Shown here: positions 2,922 through 18,058 of the stretch, one piece after another
Numbering within the stretch: the stretch's first letter is position 1
Layout: each line of letters begins with the position of its first letter
Assembly: GCA_016649715.1 (NCBI GenBank)
Contig: JAENXC010000025.1
Coordinates: 1-40,353 of the forward strand
From: Flavobacteriaceae bacterium
Lineage (GTDB): Bacteria; Bacteroidota; Bacteroidia; Flavobacteriales; Flavobacteriaceae
Length of the DNA: 40,353 nucleotides
Reading direction: 5' to 3'
Translations under genes and position numbers: made by a program
Notes under the pieces: generated by a model
What the model saw: the letters and a program-made list of their open reading frames with translations, nothing else
What the model was told of the DNA's origin: nothing
Database searches by the model: none

Positions 2922-2973
2922 TTCCTTTATTATTTCAAAAATTTCTCCGGTGAAGGCGATACGGTTTGAGTAA
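2922..2973 (+). pseudogene. Duplicated 3' end of the LolC/E-type permease gene
   Basis: These 52 bases match 2804-2855, the last 52 bases of the permease gene, with about six differences. Both encode FIISKISPVKAIRFE followed by a stop, so the differences inside that shared peptide are synonymous. The fragment has no start and is separated from the intact gene by the hairpin repeat at 2891. It is best read as the remnant of a former or related allele of the same gene left behind by recombination. Confidence 0.8.
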
Positions 2974-3291
2974 ATGTTATTTAAGGGCGATTTATCCTTT
3001 TACGGAATGAACTGCACCGATAATCGATTCATCCCTACCATTAAGAAAGTGGGGCTTTTTACTTTCGACCATAAACTTAATATTTGAATAGAATTAAAAG
3101 CGGCTTACCTATAATGGTTGCTCAATGGTAAATTAATCGACATTGAGAACCGCAATTAATTCAACATCTATCCCCTAAGCCGCTTCATCGATACGGTAAA
3201 AAACGATTACTGCATAACTCCCTTTTTAATAGAAAATCAAACATTTGATTGATGCATTATTCATATTGATGCACCTCAAAATGATAATTAT
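2974..3291. other. Non-coding or decayed region upstream of exported HU gene
   Basis: No intact gene. One frame starting at ATG 2974 gives a 37-residue peptide ending at TGA 3085-3087. The same frame then continues with further in-frame stops to about 3340 and could be a decayed gene. Stop density is not clearly different from chance in AT-rich DNA, so no gene is called. Confidence 0.4.
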
Positions 3292-3354
3292 ATTTTTTAT
3301 AGGAGAAAACTGAAAATCCAGAAAAGAGTAGGTAAAATTTAATAATTAGAAATT
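3292..3354 (+). repeat. Leader sequence shared by two exported-protein genes, copy 1
   Basis: The 5' leader of the exported HU gene is homologous to the leader at about 4372-4439. Shared blocks are 'gaaaatcc', 'gaaaagagtaggt' and 'agaaattatgaaaaca', together with an upstream 'gga..aaac' block and a T-rich stretch. The similarity runs into the first codons of both signal peptides. It may hold a common promoter and 5' UTR; no canonical TAnnTTTG element was identified with confidence. Confidence 0.65.
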
Positions 3355-4347
3355 ATGAAAACAATTTTTTTAACAACACTGTTGCTAGCTTTCAGTATAA
3401 TGACATCTGCGCAAATTAAACCAAAAGTAGCGACTTCTGAAATAAGTACTGCAAATACTTCAATTCTTGATGCAGATTCAGATGCCGACGGAATTGGAAA
3501 CGTAGCCATGAACAAAGGAGAGTTGATAGATGCTATTGCTAAAGATGCTGGATTGTCAAATGAGCCTGAAAGTAAAAATATCATTGATACTGATTTAACG
3601 GCTAAAGCAGATCTTAAAAAACTAGCGGATGAGTTGGTAAATATCACGGCTAAAGAAGCTGGCCTATCGAAAGAGGATGCTAAAAAAGCTCTAGAGGCTT
3701 TAACTGGAACAATGACGAGGTCATTAAAAAAAGGGGATAAAGTGGCATTAATTGAATTTGGCACATTTTACGTTGGTCAGGAACCAGCGCCAAACATAAA
3801 AGATCCGATATCTGGTAAGATTAAAAAAATGTCCCCAGTAAAAGTTGTGAAATTTAAACCCTGCCCAGCATTGGCAGATGCAGTAAAAAACTCACCTGGA
3901 CCAGAAATGGTAGAAGTAAGAAAGGGGCGTTTGTCATTGGAAACAAATAGGGTTAGTGATAGAGACATAGACATAGATGAAGATGGTTTAGGAGATTCAG
4001 CAATGAAAATTGAGCGCTGTGATGGCATGGACAATGATTGTGATGGCGCAACTGATGATACTCTAAAAAATGGAATGAACAAAGCAGAATTAATTGATGC
4101 CATGGCTAAAGAAGCGGGATTATCGAAAGCTGATGCGGGGAAGGCATTATCTGCATGTGTGTCAATTTTAACTCAGTCACTTAAAAAAGGCGATAGTATA
4201 CAATTAATAGGTTTTGGCACTTTCTCAATTTCAAATAAACCTGCTCATAGGTGTAAAGATCCGAAAACGGATAAGATTATAAAAGTAGCAGCAAAGAAAG
4301 TTGCAAAATTTAAAGCGGGTAAAGCATTAGCAGATACCGTTAAATAA
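3355..4347 (+). CDS. Exported protein with two HU/IHF-type DNA-binding domains and Asp-rich linkers
   Basis: A 330-residue protein with a typical Sec signal peptide (residues 1-20, ending TSAQ). Residues 39-49 form an Asp-rich DxDxDxDG box like thrombospondin type-3 calcium loops. Residues 52-68 repeat the first helix of HU (NKGELIDAIAKDAGLS). Residues 86-178 are a divergent HU-like domain with EFGTF (134-138) and KDP (149-151). Residues 204-214 are a second Asp-rich box, and 222-235 match the MopE-type metal-binding motif CDGMDNDCDGATDD. Residues 241-330 are a near-canonical HU domain with GFGTF (286-290), KDPKT (301-305) and AGKALAD. The proline that intercalates into DNA in HU/IHF is kept in both domains (Pro151, Pro303). 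Ordinary HU is about 90 residues, cytoplasmic and lacks a signal peptide. DNA binding, calcium binding and export are inferred from sequence only. It is probably periplasmic, surface-linked or released; no lipobox or sorting domain is seen. The HU fold call is strong; the biological role is unknown. Confidence 0.85.
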   Translation: MKTIFLTTLLLAFSIMTSAQIKPKVATSEISTANTSILDADSDADGIGNVAMNKGELIDAIAKDAGLSNEPESKNIIDTDLTAKADLKKLADELVNITAKEAGLSKEDAKKALEALTGTMTRSLKKGDKVALIEFGTFYVGQEPAPNIKDPISGKIKKMSPVKVVKFKPCPALADAVKNSPGPEMVEVRKGRLSLETNRVSDRDIDIDEDGLGDSAMKIERCDGMDNDCDGATDDTLKNGMNKAELIDAMAKEAGLSKADAGKALSACVSILTQSLKKGDSIQLIGFGTFSISNKPAHRCKDPKTDKIIKVAAKKVAKFKAGKALADTVK

Positions 4348-4371: not shown

Positions 4372-4439
4372 TTTTTTAAAGGAGGAAACCGAAAATCCTT
4401 ATTGTGAAAAGAGTAGGTGGAATTCTAATTATAGAAATT
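4372..4439 (+). repeat. Leader sequence shared by two exported-protein genes, copy 2
   Basis: Homologous to the leader at 3292-3354 (shared blocks 'gaaaatcc', 'gaaaagagtaggt', 'agaaattatgaaaaca'). It contains 'aaaggagg' at 4378-4385, but this lies more than 50 bases before the chosen ATG and does not act as its ribosome-binding site. The frame is open from a GTG at 4404, but that codon is inside the conserved leader and would put 12 residues before the signal peptide. Confidence 0.65.
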
Positions 4440-4982
4440 ATGAAAACATTTTTTTTAACAACAGTATTTGTGTGTTTTTGTCTATTTGGGTATACACAAA
4501 CCAGACCAAAAGTGAACGTTTCAGCTGAAAAGATTGGTTCTAAAGCTACTGATATAAAAGCAATAGAAGGATTTATCTACGGTAAACTAGACTATAAATC
4601 AGTAAGAACTAAAGGTAAGAGTCAAGGGCTTACACGTGAGGGAATAATCTTGATACTACGAGATGTTGAAACCAAAAAAATACTCGATGTAACTCAGACT
4701 GATAAGGAGGGTCGTTTTAAATTCAATAAAATGAAGTCAAGTAAACGTCAAGTGGAATTGAGATGTGGAATTAATTCAAAGAAATGGCCTCCTTTGGACG
4801 AGTGGGGGTGTCCTTTTATTTTTGAAAAATTACAACCGGATCATAATACAATGCAGATGATCGAAGCGTGTGATGACTCAACACTCATCTACCGCATTCA
4901 AACAGGATATTGTATTTGTGTTACTGATCCCTGTCCATGTAGCGATGACCCATTTCAGCAGCTACTCAAAGCACAATGGTAA
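4440..4982 (+). CDS. Exported protein of unknown function with a carboxypeptidase-regulatory-like segment
   Basis: 180 residues beginning MKTFFLTTVFVCFCLFGYTQ, a Sec signal peptide nearly identical at its start to that of the upstream exported HU protein. Residues 41-110 resemble the beta-sandwich of CarboxypepD_reg/SdrD-B-like modules (EGIILILRDVETKKIL, then TDKEGRFKF), a surface-exposed fold common in Bacteroidota. The C-terminal part is cysteine-rich (Cys109, 124, 144, 158, 160, 165, 167), suggesting disulfides or metal ligation outside the cytoplasm. The start at 4440 is chosen over a GTG at 4404 because it gives a clean signal peptide and matches the start of the homologous leader. I do not recognise a named family. 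The shared leader suggests expression together with the HU-type protein. Confidence 0.75.
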   Translation: MKTFFLTTVFVCFCLFGYTQTRPKVNVSAEKIGSKATDIKAIEGFIYGKLDYKSVRTKGKSQGLTREGIILILRDVETKKILDVTQTDKEGRFKFNKMKSSKRQVELRCGINSKKWPPLDEWGCPFIFEKLQPDHNTMQMIEACDDSTLIYRIQTGYCICVTDPCPCSDDPFQQLLKAQW

Positions 4983-5068: not shown

Positions 5069-7906
5069 ATGAAAACCAATAAATTCCATATCACACTTCT
5101 TTTGTTGAGTATGATATGGAATTTTTCTTTCTCCCAAAACTACATCAACTACACCGAAAAGGATGGGCTGGCAAGTAATTTTGTATATAGAATGACCCAG
5201 GATTACGAAGGGTTTATCTGGTTTTTAACCGATAAGGGGATAAGCAAGTTTGACGGGAAGACATTTAAAAATTTTACCACTAAAGAAGGCTTGCCAACAA
5301 ATGATAATTGGCATATCCGCATCACTCCCGATAATAGGGTTTGGTATTTTTCCAGAAGTGATGCGTTGGGATATATCAAGAATGATAGCGTATTTAAATT
5401 TAAGGCCAGTGATGGCAAAATGATGAATCCGTCCGGTCCAATATTCCAATCGGGCAATAATATTTCGTTTATTGACAATTGGAATGCATATGTTTTTTCA
5501 GATTCCATTTGGCATTCCAGTAAGAATCAAGAAGGCAGAATACAATTGCTTAATAGAGATGTATTTATAGTTTCTGATACAGCGATTAGAGATGTGCAAC
5601 TTGAAGACAAACAAGGAAGGCTTCTCCTATCACTAAATAAAAAATCGGTTTACCGTAATTACTATCAGTTTAATGATTCCTTGCTGGTTAAGGCCCATGA
5701 TAGTTATTTCGAAATCATAAATTTAAACAACTTTAAGGCTACTTATGGAGATGTTTCACATTTAGGAAAAAATGAGGCTCCCTATCATATTTTCTGGTTT
5801 AACCTTGCAAATAATAGGTTACAACTTTCCGGAGGCAAATGGCTTATTACCTTCGACGACAAACTCAAGATAAAACAAACCTATACTATTCCCTCACAGT
5901 TAAACGCTACTAATATCTTTCAGGATAAAGATGGGTTTATATGGGCTGCTACGAGTACGAATGGAGTATATAAATTGCCAATAGGGTATAGTTCAATATC
6001 CACTTATTTTGAAGATAAGAAGATTACGAAAATCACTGAAATTAATGGCGTTGTCTATGTTGGGATTGACGAAGATGGGGTTTATAAATTGGAAAATAAC
6101 AAGCCGAAACTCTGGGTAAAAGAGAACAGGCATTTATATAATATCTCTACTATTAATGAAACAATTTACTATAATTTTAGGCTCCATTTAATTTTAGAGA
6201 ATGGAGGGATATTTAAAAAGATCGAAACTCAATCCACTTCCTTTGCGTATGGTAAAAATCTATTACACTATAATGATATTTATTTCGTGGAAGGTAATTC
6301 TTCGATTGGGAGGTTAAATAAAAATTTTGGGTTTGAAAAAGGATATTCTGAATACCCTTATTATCAGGGGCTTTTTAGGCAAAACGATTCGCTCTTTTCC
6401 TTTAGCTTTAAACAAATGCTTTTCTATAATACTGAAAAAGATATTTTCCAAGGGTATAAAGGAGAACAGATTCAACAAAAATTTCTTGCCAACACACTTT
6501 ACAACGCTCAAAACTATATAGGCACCGAGGGAGATGGCTTGTATCAATTTTCTGAAGGGAAACTTCATAAATTAATTCAGGACGACACTGCTGTTATCAA
6601 CCAAATTTCTGTTGAAAATCCCAAATCTATCTGGGCAGTTTCTGAAGGGGTATTGCTTCATTATAAAGGGAATAATGCCGGGGTGTTTTCAAAAGAACGG
6701 TATAATCAAATAAACGGGCTGCCTACCAATAATTTAACTGAAGTGCTTTTTTACAAAAATCGGTTGTATTTGGGTTCAACTACAGGCCTTAATATCATTG
6801 ATAAAGCATCAATTAAGCGAACAAGTAATTTTACGCCTTACGTAAAAAGTGTCTATTTAAATGAAACTAAAATGGGCAGGGATTCAGTGGCCTATCTTTA
6901 TGGCAAAAATGTAAATCTAAAAGTAAATTTCGGTTCCATAAATTTTTTTGACCCCAATAACACAACTTATGAATATCGCCTAAGTCCAACACAGGCCAAC
7001 TGGACAACTACAACATCGGGAGAAGTAAATTTATACTCTTTACAGCCTGAGGCTTATACGCTGCAACTCAAAGTAAATCACAATGGTATAGCCAAAATAA
7101 AGAACATCCCCCTTGCAGTCATTCCAAATTGGTGGCAAACTCCTGAGTTTAAATGGGGAATGTTATTTTTGACCTTGATTTTGGTTTCTTCTGGTATTTG
7201 GATAATTAGTGCAAACCTTCGAAAAAAACGAAATAAAAAACTAATTCAAGAAAGACAGTTAGCCCAATTGGAGCTGGGAGCATTGCGTTCACAGATGAAC
7301 CCACATTTTATCCATAATTCGTTAAATGCTATTCAGTATTACATTCAGAGGCACGAGGTGGAACTATCGGAAGACTACCTCGCAAAATTTGCTACATTGA
7401 TCCGCCTTTTTTTTGAATATTCCCGAAGGCGTACCATTAGTATAAAAGATGAGGTTCTCCTTTTGCAGAATTATCTGGACATTGAAAAACTTCGGTTTGA
7501 AGATAAGCTGGAATATAAAATTACACTAGATGAAAAAATTGATAGCGAAGAGCAACTTCTGCCATCGATGATCTTACAGCCCATAGTTGAGAATGCCGTA
7601 AATCACGGCTTGTTCCACAAGGAAGCGAACGGAAATATTGAAATCCATTTTGCGTATAAAACTCCCTCATCTTTTATTGTAACCATTAAAGATGACGGTA
7701 TTGGAATAATAAAATCAAAGAAAATATATAAAGAATCTTCCAAAAGTTACCAATCCAGATCATCCAATGTATTACAGGAACGATTGAAACTCTTGAAACA
7801 AAGTAAAGAATGGAACGTAACCTGTACTACGGAAGATCGCTCCCAGATTGAAGATTCATCGGGTACTATAGTAACCCTTACGTTTAAACAGCAATACACA
7901 TTATGA
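5069..7906 (+). CDS. LytS-type sensor histidine kinase with Reg_prop/Y_Y_Y sensor domain
   Basis: A 945-residue membrane sensor kinase. A signal peptide (1-22) is followed by a large periplasmic two-component propeller with repeats of the type YTEKDGLASNFVYRMTQD, then a Y_Y_Y-type beta-sandwich (about 610-690). One transmembrane helix lies near 696-717, followed by a short coiled linker. The cytoplasmic His_kinase/LytS region has the phospho-acceptor motif MNPHFIHNSLN (His746). The ATPase domain has VENAVNHGL (N-box Asn842) and DDGIGI. Family members phosphorylate a LytTR response regulator; the gene at 8010 encodes exactly such a partner about 100 bases downstream. The sensed ligand cannot be read from sequence. 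Reg_prop sensors in Bacteroidota often respond to glycans, but there is no adjacent glycan-utilisation locus, so that is not assumed. Confidence 0.92.
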   Translation: MKTNKFHITLLLLSMIWNFSFSQNYINYTEKDGLASNFVYRMTQDYEGFIWFLTDKGISKFDGKTFKNFTTKEGLPTNDNWHIRITPDNRVWYFSRSDALGYIKNDSVFKFKASDGKMMNPSGPIFQSGNNISFIDNWNAYVFSDSIWHSSKNQEGRIQLLNRDVFIVSDTAIRDVQLEDKQGRLLLSLNKKSVYRNYYQFNDSLLVKAHDSYFEIINLNNFKATYGDVSHLGKNEAPYHIFWFNLANNRLQLSGGKWLITFDDKLKIKQTYTIPSQLNATNIFQDKDGFIWAATSTNGVYKLPIGYSSISTYFEDKKITKITEINGVVYVGIDEDGVYKLENNKPKLWVKENRHLYNISTINETIYYNFRLHLILENGGIFKKIETQSTSFAYGKNLLHYNDIYFVEGNSSIGRLNKNFGFEKGYSEYPYYQGLFRQNDSLFSFSFKQMLFYNTEKDIFQGYKGEQIQQKFLANTLYNAQNYIGTEGDGLYQFSEGKLHKLIQDDTAVINQISVENPKSIWAVSEGVLLHYKGNNAGVFSKERYNQINGLPTNNLTEVLFYKNRLYLGSTTGLNIIDKASIKRTSNFTPYVKSVYLNETKMGRDSVAYLYGKNVNLKVNFGSINFFDPNNTTYEYRLSPTQANWTTTTSGEVNLYSLQPEAYTLQLKVNHNGIAKIKNIPLAVIPNWWQTPEFKWGMLFLTLILVSSGIWIISANLRKKRNKKLIQERQLAQLELGALRSQMNPHFIHNSLNAIQYYIQRHEVELSEDYLAKFATLIRLFFEYSRRRTISIKDEVLLLQNYLDIEKLRFEDKLEYKITLDEKIDSEEQLLPSMILQPIVENAVNHGLFHKEANGNIEIHFAYKTPSSFIVTIKDDGIGIIKSKKIYKESSKSYQSRSSNVLQERLKLLKQSKEWNVTCTTEDRSQIEDSSGTIVTLTFKQQYTL

Positions 7907-7980: not shown

Positions 7981-8009
7981 TCTTCCAATTTCTCAAATAT
8001 TTTATACAG

Positions 8010-8750
8010 ATGAAGGTAACAGCATTACTCGTGGACGACGAACGAAAATCCCTTGCGATTTTAAAGAATAAACTGGAACGTTTATGCCCAGGAATTTCTA
8101 TTGTTGGTGAAACAAGAGATCCCAGGGAAGCATTAAAACTTATAGAAAAATTGCAACCACAGCTTGTCTTTTTAGACGTTGCCATGCCCGGAATGAGTGG
8201 TTTTGATCTTCTGGCCTCAATAGAATCTCCTTCTTTTGAAGTTATCTTTGTAACTGCCTTTGATAATTATGCAATAGACGCCATAAACCACTGCGCTATT
8301 GGTTATCTGGTAAAACCGGTAAAAAATGAGGATTTGATTGCTACCGTGGACAAGGCCATTTTGAATATTGAAGAAAAAACTGCCCTCCAAAAAAACCAAG
8401 TGCTTATTGAAAATCTGGGTGTACGGACCTTTCAGAAAAAGAAAATAGTCATCCCGACTTTAGAAGGCTTGGAATTTGTTAAAATTAAAGAAATAATCCG
8501 CTGCGAAGGTGAGGACGGTTATACAAAGATTTATTTTAAAGACAGTAAGCCTATTTTGAGTTCCCGCAGCATTGGCCATTTTAACTCGCTATTGGAAAAC
8601 CATGACTTTTACTTGGTCCATAAATCCCACCTTATAAATCTTCATCATATTGATAAATATTTAAATGAAGGCACTGTAATTCTCACCAATAACTATAAGA
8701 TTCCGGTATCCCGTAACAGAAGATCTGACTTTTTAAGCAAACTTAAGTAG
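8010..8750 (+). CDS. LytTR-family response regulator
   Basis: 246 residues. The receiver domain (1-120) has the acidic pocket Asp9/Asp10, phospho-acceptor Asp56 in FLDVAMPG, Thr82 in VTAF and Lys102 in VKP. A LytTR DNA-binding domain follows (about 143-246), with typical blocks IIRCEGEDGYTKIYF, FYLVHKSHLINLHHI and IPVSRNRR. It should bind DNA when phosphorylated by the adjacent LytS-type kinase. The frame is open from 7947, but the extra 21 residues are encoded by a palindromic repeat and precede the conserved MKVTALLVDDE start, so the ATG at 8010 is used. A strong intrinsic terminator follows at 8787. Its targets are unknown. Confidence 0.92.
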   Translation: MKVTALLVDDERKSLAILKNKLERLCPGISIVGETRDPREALKLIEKLQPQLVFLDVAMPGMSGFDLLASIESPSFEVIFVTAFDNYAIDAINHCAIGYLVKPVKNEDLIATVDKAILNIEEKTALQKNQVLIENLGVRTFQKKKIVIPTLEGLEFVKIKEIIRCEGEDGYTKIYFKDSKPILSSRSIGHFNSLLENHDFYLVHKSHLINLHHIDKYLNEGTVILTNNYKIPVSRNRRSDFLSKLK

Positions 8751-13419: not shown

Positions 13420-13512
13420 GAAAACGTAAACAAATTTCTCTTCGATTCTTCGAAATTGTTAACTTTTTTAGGCATCTTGCTTTTTTTATATTTTAAACCT
13501 GAAAAATCCACT

Positions 13513-15174
13513 ATGAAGAAATATCTTCTTTCGCTAATTACATTTCTTATTCCAATTTTCACTTTCGCCCAGGAACAAAAAAGTTTTGCTGAAAAAATCG
13601 ATGATGGGTTTGCTGAATACACGACGCCAATCGTTGATTTAATTTTTTATCCCGTGACAATAGCGGGAAAAGATATGCCAATTGTAATTATTCTTTTGCT
13701 GTTGGGAGCACTTTTTTTCACATTGTATTTCAATGGGGTTAATTTTAGATATATAAAAATTTGTATAAAAACAGCCGCAGGAAAATATGATGAATTGGAT
13801 CATCATGTTCCTGCGGATCAAGAAATTGAGGTAAAGGATGGTGAAATTCACGATACCGTTCACTTAACAGGTGAAGTTCCTGGAGAGGTTACACACTTTC
13901 AGGCATTAACGGCTTCCTTGTCCGCAACGGTAGGTTTAGGAAACATTGCTGGTGTTGCGGTTGCCATTGCCATTGGCGGTCCCGGAGCTACAATATGGAT
14001 GATTGTAGCTGGACTATTAGGAATGGCTTCAAAGTTCACCGAATGTACTTTGGGTGTAAAATATAGAGAAGTAGACGCAGACGGAAAAACCTATGGCGGG
14101 CCAATGTATTACCTTGCAAGTGGCCTTAAAGAAATGGGAATGGCCGGTTTTGGTAAAGTTTTGGCTATCTTTTTTGCCGTTATGTGTATAGGAGGATCCT
14201 TTGGTGGGGGAAATATGTTTCAGTCCAATCAAGCCGCGGCACAATTGACGCAATTAATGGATTGGGATGGGCCAAATGCTGGTCTTTACGTAGGTCTGGT
14301 TATGGCTCTCGTTGTTGGTTTGGTAATAATTGGTGGAATAAAAAGAATTGGATCAGTAACTGAAAAAGTAGTTCCTTTTATGGCTATTATTTATGTGGGA
14401 GCCGGATTAATAATTTTAGGTATAAATTACGATATGATTCCTTTTGCCGCCAAACAAATATGGGAGGGAGCCATAAACCCGAATGCCGCTTTTGGAGGTG
14501 TGGTCGGAGTGTTGATAGTAGGATTTCAACGTGCGGCATTCTCTAACGAAGCCGGGGTGGGTTCGGCGGCCATTGCACACTCCGCTGTAAAAACCCGATA
14601 TCCAGCCAGTGAAGGTTTAACTGCTTTGTTGGGACCTTTTGTTGATACGGTAATTATATGTACTATGACTGCTGTTGTGATTGTAATTACCAATGCAAAA
14701 CACAACTTATTTACTTATGGAAACCTTGATTCGGCAAGTAATGTAATGCTCAATGCAACCAATCAGCCAATAAACGGGGTCGATTTAACCTCGGTGGCTT
14801 TTAATTCTGCCATTCCAAATTTTTCTATAGTTCTTACCATAGCCGTTATCTTGTTTGCCGTTTCCACGATGATTTCATGGTCCTATTACGGACTTCAATC
14901 ATGGAAGTTTCTCTTTGGAAAAGGAAAAGTTTCAGATATTACATATAAGGTGTTGTTTTTAATATTTTTGGTTATAGGTGCTTCTTCCAGTTTGGGCGCC
15001 GTAATCGGTTTTTCCGATGCTATGATTTTTGCTATGGTTTTCCCAAACATTATCGGTTTGGTCTTGCTTTCGCCTAAAGTGAAAAAAGAATTGAGAAAAT
15101 ATCTGAACGCTATTAAAATAGCTAAAATGGATGCTACCATTCACCATGAAAGTAAAGAAGAGAGAAAAATTTAA
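13513..15174 (+). CDS. Alanine/glycine:cation symporter (AGCS), copy 1
   Basis: 553 residues of the AGCS family, which couples uptake of alanine or glycine to Na+ (or H+). It starts MKKYLLSLITFLIPIFTFAQ, a cleavable-looking signal peptide. This precedes the canonical fold with FQALTASLSATVGLGNIAGVAVAIAIGG, GGPGATIWM, IGGSFGGGN, AFSNEAGVGSA and STMISWSYYGLQSW. An acidic hydrophilic segment (about residues 92-125) lies before the first family block. ATG 13513 is used because an upstream in-frame start (13456) would bury the signal peptide. This is the upstream partner of a tandem duplication with 15447-17144, from which it has diverged considerably. It is followed by a hairpin terminator made from a fragment of the HhH gene. 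Confidence 0.93.
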   Translation: MKKYLLSLITFLIPIFTFAQEQKSFAEKIDDGFAEYTTPIVDLIFYPVTIAGKDMPIVIILLLLGALFFTLYFNGVNFRYIKICIKTAAGKYDELDHHVPADQEIEVKDGEIHDTVHLTGEVPGEVTHFQALTASLSATVGLGNIAGVAVAIAIGGPGATIWMIVAGLLGMASKFTECTLGVKYREVDADGKTYGGPMYYLASGLKEMGMAGFGKVLAIFFAVMCIGGSFGGGNMFQSNQAAAQLTQLMDWDGPNAGLYVGLVMALVVGLVIIGGIKRIGSVTEKVVPFMAIIYVGAGLIILGINYDMIPFAAKQIWEGAINPNAAFGGVVGVLIVGFQRAAFSNEAGVGSAAIAHSAVKTRYPASEGLTALLGPFVDTVIICTMTAVVIVITNAKHNLFTYGNLDSASNVMLNATNQPINGVDLTSVAFNSAIPNFSIVLTIAVILFAVSTMISWSYYGLQSWKFLFGKGKVSDITYKVLFLIFLVIGASSSLGAVIGFSDAMIFAMVFPNIIGLVLLSPKVKKELRKYLNAIKIAKMDATIHHESKEERKI

Positions 15175-15446: not shown

Positions 15447-17144
15447 ATGAAGAAATTTCTTCTTTCGCTAATCACATTTCTAATTCCATTATTAAATTTT
15501 GCACAAGAAACCCCTCCTGAAATGGGGATTGATGAACAAATTAATCAAGCTTTTTTGCCTGTGTCCAATTTTTTCTCAAGTGTTGTTTTCTTTCAAATAG
15601 CTGGAATTCCCTTCGTTCTTATATTACTTGTTTTCAGTGCCACATTTTTCACACTTTACTTTGGGTTTCCTAATTTCAGATATTTTTGGCGGGCAATACA
15701 AACTGTTCGCGGAAAATATGAAGATATAGAAAACCACGGTGCAAAAATTTTGTACGGAGAAGGAGGGATCGCCCAGGGTGTTGACATGAATAAGGTCGAG
15801 GATTTTGGCGCACACGTGGAAGCACTTGATGATGATTTGGCCATAGATGGTGACATTGTTGATACCATTCGCGATGAAAGTTCAGCTGGGGAAGTTAGCC
15901 ATTTTCAGGCTTTGGCAACCGCAGTTTCCGGCACCGTAGGTAATGGAAATATTGCAGGGGTTGCCTTAGCAATTGCACTTGGTGGCCCCGGGGCAACCTT
16001 TTGGATGGTAGTTTGCGGTCTTTTAGGAATGTCCACAAAATTTGTGGAATGTACCTTGGGGGTTCAATATCGCGATGTTGGTCCAGACGGAACTGTATAT
16101 GGAGGCCCTATGTTTTATCTAAGCAAAGGTCTAAAGGAAAAAGGATTTAAAACATTGGGTAAAATTGCAGCCGTTTTGTTTGCCGTTTTTTGTATTGGTG
16201 GGTCTTTTGGTGGTGGTAATGCAGCACAGTCCAACCAAGCTACCATTGTATTGAAAGATTTATTTAACCTACAAAGCACCGCAGCTGGTTTTTGGATTGG
16301 TGTATTGCTGGCTATTTTGGTTGGTATTATTATAATTGGAGGTATTAAAAGGATTGCACAGGTAACCGAAAAGGTAGTTCCCTTTATGGCAATTTTTTAT
16401 GTAATTGCTTGTTTGTATATAATTTTCAGCAATTATGGATTATTAGATGATGCAATTGCCTTGATTATTTCCGAAGCCTTTAAACCAACTGCAATTGGAA
16501 TTGGGTCTTTAATAGGAGTATTATTGGTCGGTTTTAAAAGAGCTGCATTTTCCAATGAAGCAGGTGCCGGTTCGGCGTCTATCGCTCACTCTGCCGTGCG
16601 CACAAAATATTCGGCAAGTGAAGGTTTGGTGGCATTATTGGAACCTTTTATTGATACCGTTGTAATATGCACCATGACCGCTTTGGTTATTATCATTTTT
16701 AACTTGGGAGGTTATTTTGAATATGGAGATGTAACTGGTCACGGGGTAGCAATTATTGATGGCGTTTCATACGAAGGCTCCGGAATTACCGCTCAAGCAT
16801 TTCACGCATTTATCCCGTATTCCAACATTTTCTTGACTATTGCGGTATTCCTTTTTGCTGTTTCCACTATGATATCTTGGTCGTATTATGGACTGCAATC
16901 CTGGAAATATCTTTTCGGAAGAGGCAAAACCATGGATTTAGTTTATAAAGTTCTTTTTTGTATCTTTATTATCATTGGTGCCGCTGCAAATATGAAATCA
17001 ATTTGGGACTTTTCCGATGCGATGATATTTGCGATGATTTTCCCAAACATGATTGGATTGTTCTTCCTCTTCCCCGTAGTGAAAAAACAATTGCGCCGCT
17101 ATTTGGCCGCCATTAAAATGAAAAGGGAAGCCATATCGGATTAA
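15447..17144 (+). CDS. Alanine/glycine:cation symporter (AGCS), copy 2
   Basis: 565 residues, same family and layout as copy 1: signal-peptide-like start MKKFLLSLITFLIPLLNFAQ, family blocks FQALATAVSGTVGNGNIAGVA, GGPGATFWM, IGGSFGGGN, AFSNEAGAGSA and STMISWSYYGLQSW. It has a longer acidic insertion (about residues 92-150) before the first conserved block than copy 1 has. The 5' leaders of both copies share 'gcatcttgctt' and 'aaaatccactatgaagaaat', so the promoter region was duplicated as well. The HhH gene starts only 11 bases after the stop. Confidence 0.93.
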   Translation: MKKFLLSLITFLIPLLNFAQETPPEMGIDEQINQAFLPVSNFFSSVVFFQIAGIPFVLILLVFSATFFTLYFGFPNFRYFWRAIQTVRGKYEDIENHGAKILYGEGGIAQGVDMNKVEDFGAHVEALDDDLAIDGDIVDTIRDESSAGEVSHFQALATAVSGTVGNGNIAGVALAIALGGPGATFWMVVCGLLGMSTKFVECTLGVQYRDVGPDGTVYGGPMFYLSKGLKEKGFKTLGKIAAVLFAVFCIGGSFGGGNAAQSNQATIVLKDLFNLQSTAAGFWIGVLLAILVGIIIIGGIKRIAQVTEKVVPFMAIFYVIACLYIIFSNYGLLDDAIALIISEAFKPTAIGIGSLIGVLLVGFKRAAFSNEAGAGSASIAHSAVRTKYSASEGLVALLEPFIDTVVICTMTALVIIIFNLGGYFEYGDVTGHGVAIIDGVSYEGSGITAQAFHAFIPYSNIFLTIAVFLFAVSTMISWSYYGLQSWKYLFGRGKTMDLVYKVLFCIFIIIGAAANMKSIWDFSDAMIFAMIFPNMIGLFFLFPVVKKQLRRYLAAIKMKREAISD

Positions 17145-17155
17145 ACTTTTTCAAG

Positions 17156-18058
17156 ATGAATATAAAATCCCACTTCACGTTCAACAAGCAACAACGAAGT
17201 GGGATTTTACTTTTGTTGCTGCTCATCATTTCATTGTTTTGTATTTATTGGTTTGTTGATTTTTCGGAAGAGGACACTTTAGATACTTCTTCTACGGAAA
17301 TTGTCTCTATTCAAAATGAACTGGACTCCATTCGCCTTGTTGAAATTGAAAACAGAAAACCGAAGAAATATCCTTTCAATCCAAACTTTATTACTGATTA
17401 TAAAGGGTACACTTTGGGAATGTCCAACGAAGAAATTGATCGTTTACTCCAATACAGAAAGGAAGACAAATGGATCAATTCCGCAGAAGATTTTAAAAGG
17501 GTTACTGGCGTTTCAGATTCTTTGCTTGCCGAATTGAGTCCATATTTCAAATTCCCCGATTGGGTTACCAATCCAAAACCAAAAAGCAATTTCAAGAATT
17601 ATAAAAGTGAAAAAGGTTTTTCTGATCTGCCCGCTGGGGCGGGAAATTCCTTCGCGCAAAAAATTGATCTCAACAAAGCAACCGAAGAACAATTGCAGCA
17701 AGTTAGTGGCATTGGCGAAGCATTGAGTAAACGTATTGTTTCCTATCGCGAAAAGTTGGGCGGGTTTTCAAATGACGTGCAATTGTATAGTGTTTACGGT
17801 TTGGATGCTTCAGTTGTGCAACGAACACTAAACCTTTTCACTGTAAAATCTCCGAAGGACATTTCAAAAATAAATGTAAATACAGCCTCCGCTTCCGATA
17901 TTTCAACCGTTCCCGGAATCTCGTTTGAAATGGCAAAGAAAATTTGGGAATACCGAAGACTTCACGAAAAAATAAGTAGCATTCAAGAACTGGAAAAAAT
18001 TGAAGGAATGACCGAAAGAAAGTTACAGCTAATTCAGTTATATTTGTCCGTTGAGTGA
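17156..18058 (+). CDS. Membrane-anchored helix-hairpin-helix (ComEA-like) protein
   Basis: 300 residues. An N-terminal membrane anchor (about 17-35) precedes at least three helix-hairpin-helix segments: about 80-130 (ITDYKGYTLGMSNEEIDRLL), 170-225 (KIDLNKATEEQLQQVSGIGE) and 238-298 (KINVNTASASDISTVPGIS). Tandem HhH motifs bind DNA non-specifically. Membrane-tethered forms resemble ComEA, the periplasmic DNA receptor of natural transformation, though flavobacterial members of this group are not proven competence proteins. The first codons encode one arm of a 13-bp inverted repeat that looks like a terminator for the preceding symporter gene. Downstream copies of the gene are intact; a broken 5' copy exists at 15188-15309. 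Confidence 0.85.
   Translation: MNIKSHFTFNKQQRSGILLLLLLIISLFCIYWFVDFSEEDTLDTSSTEIVSIQNELDSIRLVEIENRKPKKYPFNPNFITDYKGYTLGMSNEEIDRLLQYRKEDKWINSAEDFKRVTGVSDSLLAELSPYFKFPDWVTNPKPKSNFKNYKSEKGFSDLPAGAGNSFAQKIDLNKATEEQLQQVSGIGEALSKRIVSYREKLGGFSNDVQLYSVYGLDASVVQRTLNLFTVKSPKDISKINVNTASASDISTVPGISFEMAKKIWEYRRLHEKISSIQELEKIEGMTERKLQLIQLYLSVE
17164..17215 (+). terminator. Terminator-like hairpin inside the start of the HhH reading frame
   Basis: Perfect 13-bp arms AAAATCCCACTTC (17164-17176) and GAAGTGGGATTTT (17196-17208), a 19-base loop, then 'acttttg'. It lies within codons 3-18 of the HhH gene and 20 bases after the symporter stop. It could terminate most symporter transcripts and attenuate HhH expression; translation of the HhH start would compete with hairpin folding. 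Confidence 0.6.

Follow-up and report, generated by a model that had tools for sequence, protein, structure and literature searches.

What is an HU protein doing behind a signal-like N-terminus, in a gene slot where related bacteria keep surface proteins? The question is raised by a 40,353-nucleotide stretch of DNA from a Flavobacteriaceae bacterium (the window: assembly GCA_016649715.1, contig JAENXC010000025.1, positions 1 to 40,353 of the forward strand), in which an open reading frame (ORF) with an ATG start at 3355-4347 (+) encodes a tandem-HU protein of 330 amino acids (aa). HU usually consists of one domain of about 90 aa and has no signal peptide, and this protein departs from that form on both counts. 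Our firm result is that a secreted-type tandem HU lies in a variable surface-protein slot adjoining a two-component system. A secreted protein of the surface or matrix is the most likely identity, and we give a probability of roughly 0.4 to the reading, taken as a whole, that it is a dedicated secreted tandem HU, a DNA-organising component of the surface or matrix and the cargo of a kinase-LytTR module.

A PF00216 (Bac_DNA_binding) profile search gave two stretches in the 330 aa (Pfam; whole-protein E-value 3.7e-46; 155.7 bits against a cut-off of 22.4; domain scores of 91.7 and 65.6 bits in the scan of the source genome), bearing out an earlier note, written from the sequence alone, that had proposed two HU-type domains (here HU1 and HU2). 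Searched by phmmer, HU2 finds HU structures with a best E of 2.3e-23. Two other families of the HU superfamily, HU-HIG and HU-CCDC81_bac_2, also exceed their cut-offs (58.9 vs 26.2 and 41.3 vs 35 bits), but PF00216 scores far higher and is the best family for the protein. Both Asp-rich DxDxDxDG boxes listed in the earlier note can be read in the translation (Table 1), the second of them in the 60-residue acidic linker (isoelectric point 4.1) between HU1 and HU2. The same linker holds the MopE-type metal motif claimed there (CDGMDNDCDGATDD), which does match PF11617 (Cu-binding_MopE) at E 1.8e-4 but, with 22.1 bits, stays under the 27-bit cut-off; CDGxDNDC-type motifs also occur in large proteins of four other inspected loci (L058, L059, L060, L063). 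The linkers may bind calcium or copper. Beyond the earlier note, we find a partial HU copy (HU0), altered arm residues, five cysteines (170, 222, 229, 268 and 300) and the genomic slot itself.

The N-terminus (MKTIFLTTLLLAFSIMTSA|Q) has, by heuristic, a lysine, a hydrophobic run (hydropathy 2.45 over 12 residues) and a TSA|Q site; no comparable segment follows, the best later 19-residue hydropathy mean being 0.9. A 108-nucleotide repeat (D1, 72%) spanning leader, start and signal is common to the tandem-HU gene and the next gene, 4440-4982. The signal-like N-terminus, the leader and signal common to the next gene, and the exported-looking cargos of relatives described below together make export well supported, as the earlier note had supposed, and the protein would be exported by Sec and then cleaved. 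A C-terminal sorting domain of the type IX secretion system (T9SS; Por_Secre_tail) was not found in it at Pfam E-values up to 1. Scans of the neighbour, which ran from 4446 and thus two residues short of its ATG, gave no Pfam family over cut-off and weak SdrD_B and RRM_3 matches. This neighbour has a Cys-rich C-terminus and is an orphan, matched in the source genome only (1 of 59 genomes).

The slot is flanked on one side by an FtsX permease gene and on the other by genes for a propeller histidine kinase and a LytTR regulator, an arrangement kept in the congeners G025 and G023, whose kinases are 86% and 73% identical to that of the window. The cargo varies: the orthologous slots of these two congeners are occupied by an exported-looking LamG protein of 674 aa that carries a T9SS tail and by a likewise exported-looking curlin-repeat protein of 375 aa, and a fourth genome of the genus, G024, has the same gene order with a 163-aa exported-looking protein as cargo. 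Compared with G025, the source is 78% identical across 441 aligned columns that reach to the first codons, the cargo then diverges, and 38 of 39 positions match just before the kinase. Compared with G023, the slot has short matching stretches only; a 71-base part of the upstream stretch 2925..3365 is also found there (70%, E 7e-4). The LamG and curlin-repeat cargos resemble the tandem-HU gene in gene position, leader RNA, exported look and placement beside kinase and LytTR genes, and differ from it in an unrelated protein fold. By eye, the same-strand gene upstream of the kinase is exported-looking in all 13 kinase loci inspected (12 from the search of relatives, source included, plus G327), across a gap of 429 bases in G011. 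Among 397 family genomes the best two kinase candidates in each were scored, so orthologues may be missed. Read from gene order and sequence, the tandem-HU gene is the cargo of a module: behind a DUF805b RNA leader comes an exported gene that varies, then the propeller histidine kinase and LytTR genes.

In G327, which belongs to another genus, a 48% kinase homologue lies downstream of three curlin-repeat genes without DUF805b RNA (locus L196, G327:C3); these genes encode 538, 396 and 240 aa and stand with a 267-aa gene ahead of the propeller kinase and response regulator. Curlin repeats were not found in the source genome; they are present in 22 of the 28 genus genomes, and five others are without them as well. 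The source genome has a second module (L161, G000:C51:54789-60162) with a 586-aa T9SS-tail protein, a propeller kinase 34% identical to that of the window, and a LytTR-type regulator.

Table 1. Features of the tandem-HU locus in the window
Feature	Position	Strand	Basis
Upstream regulatory stretch, ending in first codons	2925..3365	+	78% to G025 position; blastn 343/441, E 3e-96
DUF805b cis-regulatory RNA (Rfam RF02914) before tandem-HU gene	3300..3334	+	40.2 bits vs gathering 35.6
Exported-type tandem-HU gene, 330 aa	3355..4347	+	ORF, translation, Pfam
Predicted Sec-type signal peptide, residues 1-19	3355..3411	+	Heuristic; leader and signal common to 4440-4982
Asp box 1, DADSDADG, residues 39-46	3469..3492	+	Sequence
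HU0, partial third copy of HU N-terminus (MNKGELIDAIAKDAGLS), residues 52-68	3508..3558	+	Repeat match, dN/dS
HU1 domain, residues 84-179	3604..3891	+	PF00216; AlphaFold2; Foldseek to HU structures
Asp box 2, DIDIDEDG, residues 204-211	3964..3987	+	Sequence
MopE-type motif CDGMDNDCDGATDD, residues 222-235	4018..4059	+	PF11617 E 1.8e-4, below cut-off
HU2 domain, residues 240-330	4072..4344	+	PF00216; phmmer to HU structures
Second DUF805b RNA, before neighbour gene	4379..4419	+	41.0 bits vs gathering 35.6
Exported-looking 180-aa neighbour	4440..4982	+	ATG at 4440; heuristic
Reg_prop propeller sensor histidine kinase (His_kinase PF06580)	5069..7906	+	Pfam
LytTR response regulator	8010..8750	+	Scanned as 8007-8747

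The DUF805b RNA stands ahead of the cargo in the source, G025 and G023 and, with G024, in 4 of the 13 kinase loci; scans of the remaining nine did not find it. Within the genus, where the best 150 candidates per genome were scored, it was matched in 23 of 28 genomes at E-values up to 0.01, 16 over the cut-off, with 51 matches listed; matches in controls were confined to 2 of 14 genomes, none over the cut-off. Besides the two in the window, 38 of the 51 elements were inspected, and in 36 of these 38 the ATG of a frame of at least 60 codons follows 16-27 bases on. The downstream genes are mixed, exported-looking and cytosolic-looking, and include small peptides, T9SS proteins and, repeatedly, a protein of about 755 aa, so the RNA is not a mark of export. 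Since it lies so close before the ATG of very diverse genes, it may act at translation start. We rejected a genome-wide family of leaders, the source genome holding two full copies of the leader of the tandem-HU gene. The short core AGAGTAGG occurs twice in the window, a count that 5 of 100 shuffles reach, so it is not striking. A description of the DUF805b RNA was not found in a literature search, which is no proof of its absence from print.

Would such a protein hold DNA? Using the customary HU numbering and the accepted roles of arm residues, we compared both domains with 72 HUs out of a set of 73 loci (59 of them distinct, with many close relatives; L191 dropped out, and L002, the second HU of the source genome, was deliberately kept out). 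Position 63, a proline in 72/72 of these HUs and missing from L002, is Pro151 in HU1 and Pro303 in HU2. The earlier note was right that both domains keep the intercalating proline, but DNA binding is not a given, because the arm arginines at positions 55, 58 and 61 (Arg in 69/72, 72/72 and 67/72) are replaced by E/P/K in HU1 and K/H/K in HU2. HU1 has also exchanged Gly46 (72/72) and Gly82 (63/72) for E and C, and any cysteine is found in 8 of the 72. With the proline retained and the arms altered in this way, DNA binding is plausible for HU2, whereas HU1 looks impaired and its binding is doubtful.

The chief rival explanation is a secreted structural protein whose tandem HU fold has given up DNA and serves as a protein-protein scaffold, as may be the case for certain HU-like tandem proteins in microtubules. 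We consider it unlikely, although it fares best among the alternatives: the position-63 proline and lysines 18, 37, 38, 70, 78 and 80 are retained in both domains, and HU2 still shares about 50% identity with ordinary HUs. The likely role is that of a protein at the surface or in the matrix which touches DNA outside the cytoplasm, chiefly by way of HU2.

AlphaFold gives both domains HU folds with short beta-arm strands, the structural feature whose absence, according to the earlier note, would have spoken against its proposal. HU1 modelled alone reached a mean predicted local distance difference test score of 89.3 (AlphaFold2), and its Foldseek matches are HU structures. The full-chain model aligns with 2iie over 145 residues at 3.6 Å, in a model with a predicted template modelling score of 0.54, without predicted aligned error, and with a Foldseek root-mean-square deviation of 15.7. 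That structure is scIHF2 (PDB 2iie/2iif), an engineered single-chain IHF; the window protein resembles it in having two HU-type halves in one chain and differs in being natural, HU-like and exported-type, with halves joined by about 60 residues. HU1 may pair with HU2 inside one chain, as modelled, and such pairing argues against two separate DNA grips. The suggestion in the earlier note that the two domains bridge two DNA strands is weakened accordingly, at the modest confidence of the model, by this likeness to a one-chain pair and by the dimeric working form of HU; DNABII proteins form dimers, according to PMC8396552.

In the reading that we prefer, two HU domains in one chain would make a dedicated secreted HU, in which HU1 and HU2 fold together into a pseudo-dimer whose halves are joined by a linker responsive to metal. 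It would contact extracellular or periplasmic DNA asymmetrically, mainly via HU2, and its gene would be under the control of the kinase/LytTR pair and the DUF805b RNA. A bolder form, in which a natural single-chain HU acts as architect of extracellular DNA through an asymmetric pseudo-dimer with metal-set linkers, a DNA-based part replacing a curli-like one in a slot that related bacteria give to amyloid or adhesin matrix proteins, is tentative and rather unlikely. If the preferred reading is true, the matrix role of HU would be selectable in its own right, through a signal of its own in a regulated surface-protein slot. The tandem-HU gene would also be a clean deletion target, because the source genome (3.4 Mb, 71 contigs) has two further HU genes, each single-domain. 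T9SS sorting domains encoded in that genome suggest a member of the Bacteroidota.

HU and IHF hold lattices of extracellular DNA together in biofilms and are released by lysis or, in one species, through a type IV secretion system-like pore with ComE, as described in PMC8396552. The window protein would share with them an HU fold outside the cytoplasm, but theirs leaves by lysis or pore and it has its own signal-like N-terminus. With ordinary HU (DNABII, PF00216) it shares the fold, the proline and the level of HU2 identity noted above; it differs in its exported-type, tandem build, acidic linkers, cysteines and altered arms. A signal-like N-terminus without a T9SS tail would also suit a periplasmic protein for compacting or retaining DNA that enters the cell, as in natural uptake, and the same contig encodes a helix-hairpin-helix protein of ComEA-like type whose N-terminus has a membrane segment (17156-18058; named by eye). 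This gene, however, is 13 kb off, the tandem-HU gene was not seen to have a competence gene next to it, and the other slot cargos are surface or amyloid-type proteins, which makes this periplasmic role quite unlikely.

The full architecture (residues 1-330 matched) was found in the source genome only, in sets of 59 relatives (27 congeners among them), 397 family genomes and 395 phylum genomes, which overlap and each include the source, so that counts are not additive. It was absent from the other relatives, from the matches listed for the 396 other family genomes (best five candidates per genome) and from the 394 other phylum genomes at E up to 1e-21 (again the best five). A pattern scan of genome contigs gave six loci, one ordinary HU and five linker-part matches (three of the five inspected); one of viral contigs gave two, matching the linker and HU2 start (one inspected). 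With tblastn, none of 58 phage and 1402 plasmid records had a place covering 80% of the protein. Eight long-frame or high-scoring loci, once translated, proved to be ordinary single-domain HUs preceded by a stretch free of stops. These searches could overlook an exported HU that has diverged, since in them lists are ranked by score and pattern scans require exact short words. A literature search did not find a signal-bearing HU described, which does not prove that none is in print.

HU1 and HU2 are 53.8% identical. The HU0 stretch (3508-3560) is 81% identical to 4075-4127 in HU2, and the differences are mostly at silent sites (nonsynonymous rate, dN, 0.08; synonymous rate, dS, 1.75; 16 codons with dS close to saturation). 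We rejected recent copying from the HU of the host itself, to which HU2 is 48.9% and HU1 37.8% identical. Trees did not trace the two domains to a source (support for HU1+HU2 57/76 and 70/67), and a grouping of HU1, HU2 and host HU is not rejected (approximately unbiased test, p 0.177). Occurrence in one genome, the partial HU0 copy, a fast-evolving HU1 (end branch 1.57) and a third-position GC content of 25.1 against 34.8 for the kinase could all be taken as signs of a young chimera without settled function, or of a decaying gene. We hold this to be improbable, slightly behind the uptake role, because the 330-codon frame is intact, dN/dS is about 0.28 between HU1 and HU2 and near 0.05 between HU0 and HU2 (a short comparison with dS near saturation), and two DUF805b leaders stand above the gathering score. 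Weakest is the idea that the N-terminal helix stays uncleaved and the HU is anchored in the membrane or cytoplasmic. AlphaFold2 does draw a helix at residues 3-14, with low confidence, but the TSA|Q site, the cysteines, the MopE-like linker and a neighbour that shares the leader and has a similar signal make this reading very improbable.

The slot also gives a handle on the DUF805b RNA and on kinase pairs beside changing surface cargo. Elsewhere in the window, 13456-15174 and 15447-17144 encode a tandem pair of similar symporter-like membrane proteins (named by eye).
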